The position numbers were made by a program, and so were the translations under genes. The notes under the pieces are model-generated. The model made no database searches. It was not told the origin of the DNA and was given only the letters and a program-made list of their open reading frames with translations. From Pseudomonadales bacterium (GTDB taxonomy: Bacteria > Pseudomonadota > Gammaproteobacteria > Pseudomonadales > Azotimanducaceae): a stretch of 64,000 nt of DNA. Shown one piece after another: positions 36,442 to 43,353 of this stretch. Position 1 is the stretch's first letter. Each line of letters starts with the position of its first letter. The stretch is from NCBI GenBank assembly GCA_029251375.1, contig JAQXDL010000022.1:310001-374000 (forward strand), given 5' to 3'.

Positions 36442-36858
36442 GTGAAAAAGATTGGAATATTATTATTATCCCTCTGTGCCCTTCCTATGATGGTCGCCGC
36501 CGGAACGGTTGAGACTGAAATAGCTGAGCGTATTAAGAAGAGCGGTGGTGTTTGCTTGCAGGGCGAAGATTGCGCAAGTAATTCCGGCTCCATGGTTGTT
36601 GCCAGTGCTGACTCAGGTGGTGCAAAAACCAATTACGACAAGACCTGTGCTACTTGCCATGCGGCCGGGATCGCCGGTGCCCCCAAGCTAGGTGACAAAG
36701 GTGCTTGGAGCCCGCGTCTTGAAAAGGGTATGGATGTACTCTATGCAAGCGGTATCAATGGACTACCTCCAGCAATGCCAGCCAAGGGTATGTGTTTCAC
36801 TTGTAGCGACGACGATATTAAAGCGATCGTTGACTACATGGTAGATTCAGTAAGATAA
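36442..36858 (+). CDS. Cytochrome c5-family protein
   Basis: Periplasmic mono-heme cytochrome of 138 residues, starting at GTG 36442. Signal peptide about 1-20. The heme site is CATCH at 69-73, followed by AAGIAGAPKLGDKGAWSPR and the C-terminal GMCFTCSDDDIKAIVDYM, which carries the extra cysteine pair typical of cytochrome c5. The 45-residue linker before the heme site is longer than the minimal family form. Likely a soluble or membrane-associated donor to the terminal oxidase. Confidence 0.92.
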   Translation: MKKIGILLLSLCALPMMVAAGTVETEIAERIKKSGGVCLQGEDCASNSGSMVVASADSGGAKTNYDKTCATCHAAGIAGAPKLGDKGAWSPRLEKGMDVLYASGINGLPPAMPAKGMCFTCSDDDIKAIVDYMVDSVR

Positions 36859-41262: not shown

Positions 41263-43353
41263 CTATTCTGAACCTGTAGATGCAGTCGGCTTTGCTTTGA
41301 AGCTCGCGGCATACTCCTGCCAGCTCAGTGCGCCGTCATCGTTTTGATCTAGCTTATCAAAGCTACCCGCTAGTCGCCGACCGGCACGACCTCTAACTTC
41401 TTCTTTTTGTATCGACTCATCGATATTGTCGTCCAACATACCGAAGAGTCGTCCGGCCCGTAATAATTCTTCGTACTGAGTTTTCTGATCCGCGCTGGTT
41501 TCGTCAACCCATCGGTAACTAATGGCGGTATACAGCATTTCTTCAAATGACTGATCGCCCCAGACAATCTTCTTTGTCGGGTCCGGGTTCGCCGGATTTT
41601 GTGCCGAATTGTCGTACCTGTAGCGCGCTATCAATTTTGCGCCAGCCGGTACCTTTATGGGGTCTTTAAACTCGTATGCACGTTGCCAGTTAAAATCGTA
41701 CTTTGGCAATGACAATATCATTTCTTCAGATCCGTCAGGGTATTGAATCGCTAACGTTGAAGACTGACCGCGATAGTGTGCATGTGGAAATGCATAAAAA
41801 AGTTCTGCGTCTTTGGGGAACTCTAGATAGGCGGTTTCAGCATGATTTGCCTGTCCAGGTGGTATCTCAATCGAGAAATCCATGATGACAGAGTTACGCA
41901 ACATTCTTGGCGGCTGCTTATCATAGAAGTACAGACCAATTTGCGTTGTATCGGTAACTTCTCGCCCGAAAGGTGTGTAGTGCATCTGCAGCCCAATTGC
42001 GCCGCCCGGTGGGATATAGGTTCCAAGTCCTTCTCTGGCTATCATTGATTCAGCGCCGACGGCGTAACCGCCGACAGATGCGCCCCACCTGACTTCATTA
42101 CTTTTTCCGTTCTTGGGTATGTCTTTCATATAGCCTGTTAAGACGTGGTGCACGGACTCTCTAGAGCCTACTTTGACTGTGCTTGCGCGAAGCCATTTGC
42201 CTTCCTCTAGCGGGTTCAGCACATAGGGTCGTTGATAATCAACGACACCGGTAGCAGGCACATCAAATGATGGTACGGTAAGAATCAGATCAGGCACGCC
42301 AAGCGGCCAATCAGGTAGTGATTCACGTGGGTCTGCTAAAGGATCATAGCCATCGCCTCGAGGAGAACCGGCTTCAATCCAATGCACGAGGGTTTTAATT
42401 TCACTGCTCGACAGGCTTCGATCATGCAGAAAGCTGCCAATATTGGGATCCGAATGCCAGGGCGGCATACGGTCGGTTCGAATCACTTCCCGAATCATGG
42501 GAGAGAAACCCTTAATCATGTCGTAGCTCGTCATTGCCCAAGGACCGATACCACCGACTTGATGGCATTCAACACAGCGTTGTTCGAGGATCGGCGCAAT
42601 AGTGTCTTTATATGAGATGCTGGCGTGCATCTCTTTCTTGTCTCTTTCTGGGAAATTAACGATGCAACCGGGTGCATCAACTTGACTAATTTTTACTGAT
42701 TCGCCCGCGATAACCGCATCCAAGGCGTCACTCAAATAAGCAAACTCTGCCTGTGCTTTTTGATTTTGGTAGGTCAACCGATCATCTACTGGTCCGTGGT
42801 AAACGACTTTGCGAGATTTTGGATTAATAACAAAAACTTCCGCTGTGCGTGTCACATTGAGAGATTCGCCGACCAATTGGTTCTCATCGACAAGCACAGG
42901 TATATCGAAGCCAAAATCGGCTACTTCTTTCGCGATGGTGGTTTGATTGTCCTGTAAATTAGAGTTCAACAGAAAGAATTTCACACCTTTTTTTTCATAA
43001 ACGTCTCTGACATCGCGATAGGCAGGTACGGCGTTACGAACGATCGGGCAGCCATTACCTTGTGTCATGATAACAATAGCGGGCGCGTCATTGTAGTAGA
43101 ACAGCCGGTGCGCGGTGCCTGTGTGATCCAACAATTGAAAGTCATCAACGCGCATTCCAACCACATCTTCGACAGAGGATACTGCGTGCATTTTGCTGTG
43201 ATGATTGCTCGCCTTATCCGTCGGTTTTGCGAGTGCTACTTGAGCGCCAAGGCTCAAAATAAGCGATAGTCCTATCGATGCGGCGAGTGATTGGGCCGGC
43301 CGCAATTGCTGTCTTTTAAGGCTAAGGGGTTTGGTTGATTTATTACTGATCAT
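41263..43353 (-). CDS. Exported fusion: redoxin, cytochrome c, copper monooxygenase-like, EF-hand
   Basis: Large periplasmic protein of 696 residues from ATG 43353 (signal peptide about 1-42, ending ALA). Domains in order: AhpC/TSA-like redoxin (about 60-220; single likely active Cys102 in GNGCPIVRNAVP); mono-heme cytochrome c (CVECH at 260-264, likely axial Met296); a PHM-like type II copper monooxygenase region with candidate ligands His402-His403, His458, His524, His526 and Met606; and a C-terminal EF-hand (DQNDDGALSWQEY, about 670-683). The copper-ligand pattern follows peptidylglycine monooxygenase. Substrate unknown. It is monocistronic and convergent with thrC. Confidence 0.8.
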   Translation of the reverse strand: MISNKSTKPLSLKRQQLRPAQSLAASIGLSLILSLGAQVALAKPTDKASNHHSKMHAVSSVEDVVGMRVDDFQLLDHTGTAHRLFYYNDAPAIVIMTQGNGCPIVRNAVPAYRDVRDVYEKKGVKFFLLNSNLQDNQTTIAKEVADFGFDIPVLVDENQLVGESLNVTRTAEVFVINPKSRKVVYHGPVDDRLTYQNQKAQAEFAYLSDALDAVIAGESVKISQVDAPGCIVNFPERDKKEMHASISYKDTIAPILEQRCVECHQVGGIGPWAMTSYDMIKGFSPMIREVIRTDRMPPWHSDPNIGSFLHDRSLSSSEIKTLVHWIEAGSPRGDGYDPLADPRESLPDWPLGVPDLILTVPSFDVPATGVVDYQRPYVLNPLEEGKWLRASTVKVGSRESVHHVLTGYMKDIPKNGKSNEVRWGASVGGYAVGAESMIAREGLGTYIPPGGAIGLQMHYTPFGREVTDTTQIGLYFYDKQPPRMLRNSVIMDFSIEIPPGQANHAETAYLEFPKDAELFYAFPHAHYRGQSSTLAIQYPDGSEEMILSLPKYDFNWQRAYEFKDPIKVPAGAKLIARYRYDNSAQNPANPDPTKKIVWGDQSFEEMLYTAISYRWVDETSADQKTQYEELLRAGRLFGMLDDNIDESIQKEEVRGRAGRRLAGSFDKLDQNDDGALSWQEYAASFKAKPTASTGSE

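Follow-up and report, generated by a model that had tools for sequence, protein, structure and literature searches.

A conserved heme c and PHM-fold copper core in a predicted periplasmic fusion protein of Proteobacteria

Introduction

Peptidylglycine alpha-hydroxylating monooxygenase (PHM), whose two-copper domain serves animals in finishing peptide hormones, is a classic ascorbate-dependent enzyme. What role could the same copper sites play in bacteria, when they are tied to a heme within the same chain? This question is raised by a gene in a 64,000-nucleotide stretch ("the window") of contig JAQXDL010000022.1 from a Pseudomonadales bacterium of the family Azotimanducaceae, in which an open reading frame running on the minus strand from 43353 down to 41263 encodes a protein of 696 amino acids. 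The protein joins a redoxin, a c-type heme domain, a PHM-type copper region and a pair of EF-hands. With moderate confidence, we read it as a copper monooxygenase, soluble in the periplasm, that shares the fold of PHM and dopamine beta-hydroxylase (DBH) and has its own electron relay, with heme in place of ascorbate. If so, the family would provide a tractable test of the electron route to the copper site CuH and of the crossing to the second site, CuM. The periplasm would also gain a class of oxygenase, which raises the question of what these bacteria hydroxylate there.

In the portions of the literature available to us, PHM is presented as a family with a double jelly roll that is found widely in eukaryotes (PMC8812541) and is listed among algae-related genes (PMC3494510). 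Judged by title and the opening lines of the abstract, none of the papers listed described a bacterial heme c-PHM fusion; several listings gave a small part of the matching papers, and most subscription papers and bioRxiv preprints lay outside the coverage.

Heme and copper ligands form a constant core

A profile scan of genome contigs yielded 463 relatives, of which the best 80 were kept. These were aligned with the window protein, a paralog from its own genome (L082) and 17 loci from a genome search to give 99 rows. Left out were L099 (incomplete), L083 (same contig place as L011), L100 and L101, which match the redoxin only, and genome-search matches whose locus had not been fetched. The copper ligands (HHHHHM), the heme ligands (CCHM, comprising CxxCH and Met296) and Met286 are identical in 99 of 99 rows. 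A preliminary description of this locus, made from the sequence alone, had staked its copper site on conservation of six residues whose numbers prove exact in the translation; all six are invariant. Conservation across the family confirms, at the level of sequence, that the ligand set is not a chance occurrence.

Because the 99 rows are the best-scoring matches, we also checked seven more diverged copies (34-42% identity). The copper ligands are complete in 7/7, and the heme ligands in all six copies that span that region, the remaining one (L112) being a fragment without it. The same core is found in bacterial proteins that have no redoxin. One genome (G664) encodes two adjacent heme c-PHM proteins of 441 and 467 amino acids (both at L130), and another (G151) a 421-amino-acid relative (L105) with CxxCH and a copper region. 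No EF-hand was seen in these three proteins, and the signal of L105 appears lipoprotein-like by reading. They are 27-28% identical to the window protein, and alignment with its residues 240-622 leaves 29 columns invariant in the four proteins, including all ten metal ligands (C260, C263, H264, M296, H402, H403, H458, H524, H526 and M606). The redoxin-less relatives do not keep M286, which never varies in the close family; Met296 is therefore the probable second axial heme ligand. The ligands of both sites are invariant even in these relatives; the heme-copper pair is thus the constant core, and the redoxin and EF-hands look like additions to it.

The copper region has the fold and register of PHM

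An AlphaFold model of the whole protein, based on an 82-sequence alignment (mean predicted local distance difference test score, pLDDT, 87.2; predicted template modeling score, pTM, 0.83), contains two consecutive PHM-type jelly-roll subdomains. Foldseek places PHM first among the PDB matches of the model (3mll, E 3.9e-15) and ranks human DBH (4zel) eighth. A structural aligner superposes model residues 352-647 on PHM entry 1phm with Z 21.1 (271 residues, 3.5 Å); the PHM entries range from Z 17.8 to 21.8, and DBH 4zel reaches Z 22.2 (286 residues, 4.4 Å).

The copper ligands can also be aligned to PHM by sequence, because L105 both matches the family copper-region profile (5.4e-31) and carries similarity to rat PHM 1opm (2.9e-7), with both Cu2_monooxygenase Pfam halves over their cut-offs. 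In the joint alignment, H402, H403, H458, H524, H526 and M606 fall on PHM H107, H108, H172, H242, H244 and M314. In 29/29 family rows Y373 falls on PHM Y79 and Q557 on Q272; the match of Q456 to Q170 is seen in 24 of the 29. We presume functional roles in PHM for Y79, Q170 and Q272 as well as for R240, N316 and Y318, the last three of which we take to be pocket residues for the peptide carboxylate and glycine. PF01082 is not listed for the window protein, whose copper region alone scores 19.5 bits for PF03712. The latter is matched at E ≤0.01 by 25/29 family copper regions and lies over its cut-off in the ortholog from G003 (24 bits). Neither Cu2_monooxygenase half was detected in the two L130 proteins at E 0.01. 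The PHM copper-ligand identities, the role of ascorbate and the copper-copper distance of 11 Å used here follow the part of PMC6123673 available to us.

Taken together, the predicted fold, the PHM register and the invariance of the ligands in the 99 rows support a PHM-type two-copper region with a full ligand set, as had been proposed in the preliminary description; its own refuting test leaves that proposal standing, since the residues are conserved and the model has the PHM fold with the ligands in register. The protein would bind copper and act as a monooxygenase.

The bacterial protein resembles PHM (rat; 1phm, 1opm and 1sdw) in its two-subdomain fold, in all six copper ligands and in the matching Tyr and Gln residues, but differs in being fused to heme c, redoxin and EF-hands. 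PHM has a disulfide-rich copper core and no heme domain, whereas the bacterial copper part (residues 346-622) contains no cysteine in 99/99 rows or in 7/7 diverged copies. The presumed peptide-pocket residues of PHM are likewise not kept: R240 corresponds to Y520 or F522 (two alignments differ), N316 to Y608 and Y318 to A610. Across the 99 rows, position 520 is Arg in two, 522 is never Arg, 608 is never Asn and 610 is Tyr in one. Because the copper-part cysteines and these pocket residues are absent, the protein is probably not a peptidylglycine enzyme; an assignment as peptidylglycine hydroxylase was rejected on the pocket residues. DBH (human, 4zel) shares the copper fold, and in both proteins an extra domain precedes the copper region. 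This domain is DOMON in DBH; in the bacterial protein it is a cytochrome of the c type, bearing a motif for covalent heme attachment.

Redoxin and EF-hands as accessory modules

The redoxin domain superposes on 3u5r with Z 22.8 (174 residues, 2.4 Å). It resembles SMc02350-type redoxins (3u5r, 2cvb and 2ywi; Z 22.7-22.8), whose cysteines align at 102 and 230. Those are stand-alone proteins, whereas roughly half of the fusion rows have lost the cysteine pair. There is no CxxC in the redoxin; the sequence reads Cys102-Pro-Ile-Val, and the second cysteine lies at the distant position 230. Both cysteines are present in 52/99 rows, neither in 47/99 and a single one in none. Among the six diverged copies that span the heme region, the pair is present in two and absent in four, again with no single cysteine. 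In a tree for which only the heme and copper columns were used (a quick method with Shimodaira-Hasegawa-like approximate likelihood ratio test support only, and a midpoint root), the cysteine state needs five changes, and the starred branches force at least three.

The redoxin as a general electron donor was rejected because the pair is absent from so many rows and diverged copies. Judged from these alignments, the redoxin is an accessory module. Where its cysteine pair is present, it could act on thiols or on peroxide that escapes from the copper site; elsewhere among the rows it would be a scaffold. As an observation on composition, cysteine is strictly avoided beside copper and heme, the copper part having none and the redoxin part exactly two or zero in all 99 rows.

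The fusion of four modules listed in the preliminary description is confirmed, with the correction that the EF-hand is a pair of loops rather than a single one. The canonical loop has D669, N671, D673 and E680; the first loop has D641, N643, D645 and E652, with Gly6 replaced by Glu. Positions 1 and 12 of both loops are kept in 72/99 rows, and neither Glu is kept in 23/99, so that the pair is missing in roughly a quarter. The pair probably binds calcium for stability.

Proposed mechanism and alternatives

In the monooxygenase that we favor, the heme would accept electrons one at a time from carriers in the periplasm or membrane and pass them to CuH and then on to CuM, doing what ascorbate does in animal PHM. 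O2 would be activated at CuM, and a C-H bond hydroxylated on some substrate that is not a peptide ending in glycine. We infer metal occupancy, electron direction and oxygen activation. More tentatively, and with somewhat less confidence than for the single protein, we propose a bacterial PHM-fold lineage in which a fused heme c replaces ascorbate, a wire runs from heme c to CuH to CuM, C-H hydroxylation takes place in the periplasm and paralogs have diversified by substrate.

Several observations weigh against the monooxygenase reading. The 99 rows were picked as the best-scoring relatives, and their invariance describes that selection, with only the seven diverged copies and the heme-PHM relatives reaching beyond it. 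Co-conservation of the heme and copper sites, which fits the electron feed from heme to copper suggested in the preliminary description, is silent on the direction of electron flow. The copper-region profile of the family found no chain among PDB sequences up to E 10, the equivalent of PHM Q170 is Ser in 10/99 rows, and neither L130 protein keeps the counterparts of Q170 and Q272. Among Pfam domains on the window protein, Redoxin scores above its gathering cut-off (44 vs 26.6 bits), but Cu2_monoox_C (17.7 vs 23 bits), cytochrome c (16 vs 27) and EF-hand (14.4 vs 25.9) fall below theirs; the copper, heme and EF-hand assignments therefore draw on motif, conservation and fold. Modeled separately (pLDDT 84.4), the heme domain has no Foldseek match under E 1. 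Its best match in the structural aligner is moderate (monoheme cytochrome PccH, Z 6.5, 76 residues, 2.1 Å), followed by cytochrome c peroxidase YhjA at Z 5.4. By title, the eight rows listed by the aligner comprise seven cytochromes or heme enzymes and an unrelated Csm complex. The heme-domain sequence profile matches PDB weakly (best hydrazine synthase alpha, E 0.00097, with no single stretch significant). The structural match is thus consistent with a c-type cytochrome, short of proof. Lastly, no gene neighbor is conserved across the family (82 loci), so that no partner or substrate is indicated.

Four other explanations were considered. The coppers of a PHM-type monooxygenase might receive their electrons from a small molecule that diffuses in (ascorbate-like, quinol or thiol), and the heme might have another task, such as oxidizing the hydroxylated product or sensing oxygen. 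PHM itself does without a heme domain, and the heme domain is a separate unit in the alignment. We nevertheless find this unlikely, because the heme and copper sites are never separated in the 99 rows, six diverged copies and three redoxin-less relatives, a pattern more readily understood if the copper site is what the heme works for. An improbable alternative is that the PHM fold is a copper-binding module that does not oxygenate, acting for example in copper delivery or sensing together with redoxin and heme, like respiratory oxidase assembly factors. The redoxin-type proteins Sco and TlpA do take part in the assembly of oxidase copper sites in some bacteria, but here both copper sets and the equivalents of PHM Y79 and Q272 are kept in 99 rows, the redoxin cysteines are often lost, and an assembly factor would not be expected in up to five copies per genome or with a pocket that varies.

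Electrons could also flow in reverse, with the copper site oxidizing a substrate and the heme passing electrons to the respiratory chain, as in a dehydrogenase-like oxidase. In some lineages the neighbors are pyrroloquinoline quinone (PQQ) dehydrogenase-like (6/82 loci) or molybdenum hydroxylase-like (7/82), and enzymes of both kinds can pass electrons to c-type cytochromes. Such neighbors are confined to few lineages, however, and the His-His-Met set of CuM is the O2-binding set of PHM according to the available part of PMC6123673; we regard reverse flow as quite improbable. Least credible to us is the redoxin as the physiological reductant of the copper site, a role that the preliminary description had considered. 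It would benefit from fusion in the same chain and from the rows that keep both cysteines, but nearly half of the rows keep every metal ligand without them, the tree forces repeated changes of state, 4/6 of the further diverged copies that span the heme region also have no pair, and redoxin-less relatives exist. The monooxygenase with a heme relay remains the reading that we prefer.

Feature coordinates and export

The features of the gene are collected in Table 1. The signal peptide was judged by reading the sequence and by hydropathy, and we predict on this basis that the protein is exported to the periplasm in soluble form.

Table 1. Features of the fusion gene, with positions in the window.
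Feature	Positions	Strand	Description and basis
Whole gene, 696 amino acids	41263..43353	-	redoxin - heme c - PHM-fold copper domain - EF-hand pair; open reading frame and AlphaFold model
Sec-type signal peptide (predicted), residues 1-42	43228..43353	-	hydrophobic ~19-40, ALA before Lys43; reading and hydropathy
Redoxin (thioredoxin-like) domain, residues 62-238	42640..43170	-	Pfam Redoxin 2.5e-11; 3u5r Z 22.8
Cys102, directly before helix 103-122	43048..43050	-	partner of Cys230; row counts and model helix
Cys230, distant partner cysteine	42664..42666	-	alignment counts, 99 rows
c-type heme domain, residues 240-345	42319..42636	-	CxxCH and Met296 in 99/99; PccH structural match moderate
CVECH heme c attachment motif, residues 260-264	42562..42576	-	invariant
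Met296 (MPP motif), probable second axial heme ligand	42466..42468	-	99/99 rows and 3 redoxin-less relatives
Two-subdomain PHM-fold copper region, residues 346-622	41488..42318	-	Foldseek 3mll; 1phm Z 21.1
His402-His403, predicted CuH ligands (PHM H107, H108)	42145..42150	-	PHM register and invariance
His458, predicted CuH ligand (PHM H172)	41980..41982	-	PHM register and invariance
His524-x-His526, predicted CuM ligands (PHM H242, H244)	41776..41784	-	PHM register and invariance
Met606, predicted CuM ligand (PHM M314)	41536..41538	-	PHM register and invariance
EF-hand pair, residues 625-690	41284..41481	-	loops 641-652 degenerate, 669-680 canonical; helix-loop-helix pair in model

Distribution, paralogs and origin

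Record titles among the best 80 of 463 relatives name Alpha- and Gammaproteobacteria, two Burkholderiales metagenome-assembled genomes and some unclassified bacteria. The preliminary description mentioned similar proteins in marine bacteria; the family is not only marine, since Steroidobacteraceae, Phenylobacterium and other Caulobacterales also carry the fusion. By the copper-region profile, the source genome has two copies, and its taxonomic family is positive in 55/120 genomes (39/89 good ones), a single genome having five copies at most. Genomes drawn evenly from the phylum gave 3/397 positives, the source genome included, and the order of G267 gave 9/150. A search of 58 genomes produced matches in 24, six of them via the redoxin only, leaving 18. 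PF03712 was found in none of 14 control genomes.

On the CuM side, pocket positions 522, 608 and 610 vary between branches, with Arg at 610 in 31/99 rows. This variation suggests several substrates across the family and, together with the multiple copies per genome, fits enzymes with different substrates; the substrates of paralogs probably differ.

Within the source genus, two of five examined genomes carry the gene (G000 and G003). At the corresponding thrC-HAD junction of G002, the aligned ends of threonine synthase and HAD hydrolase lie 24 bases apart and the gene is absent; the junction spans ~350 bases in G001 and holds other genes in G004. The window protein falls inside a mostly alphaproteobacterial group on the tree (branches 99 and 97), apart from the paralog of its own genome. 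Given a midpoint root only, the gene was likely acquired laterally from Alphaproteobacteria. By reading, the G004 junction (L129:4916-7510) contains small cytochrome c, metallophosphoesterase-like and di-heme cytochrome c peroxidase-like genes instead, which suggests that genes are readily exchanged at this site. The second copy in the source genome (L082) is 46% identical, belongs to another branch of the family and lies beside genes for a PhyH-like dioxygenase and an enoyl-CoA hydratase.

Gene neighborhood

Genome neighbors in relatives had been named as a check; those that recur are confined to few lineages, without a family-wide partner. Neighbor families were named from one or two members each, many flanks end at contig ends, and longer antisense open reading frames stood in for the fusion gene at 8 loci (family F4). 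PQQ dehydrogenase-like genes were counted within the fetched flank. In a neighboring four-locus branch, a cytochrome c-PQQ dehydrogenase-like gene is near the fusion in 3/4 loci (Aquisalinus L002 and L004; Parvularculaceae L005), Henriciella L003 being the only one without it. Two further gene families are common to these three loci. In L002 one of them is a small lipoprotein that, by reading, has CxxCH close to its end, and the other is represented by two membrane proteins of the DUF6644 type; the order differs in L005. As a lead only, these surroundings fit an electron-transfer setting. DUF6644 was considered as an electron partner; the source genome has a DUF6644 pair elsewhere, away from the fusion gene. 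That pair (L122:7049-8110) consists of tandem membrane proteins, each with a His at a similar early position (by reading), as beside the Aquisalinus fusion.

The molybdenum hydroxylase-like gene lies directly upstream on the same strand at its seven loci (L057, L056, L058, L027, L053, L059 and L063), all inside one 30-row tree branch, and a [2Fe-2S] subunit gene accompanies it in five. In a Halieaceae branch (L067-L072 and L075-L077), a gene of one family is divergent from the fusion in 9/9 loci; in L067 this gene encodes an MMPL-type transporter. We treat the molybdenum hydroxylase-like, MMPL-type and PQQ dehydrogenase-like neighbors as weak leads. A few genes away from the fusion, window positions 36442-36858 encode a small c-type cytochrome with a signal-like start and a CATCH motif (by reading), which is a possible electron carrier.
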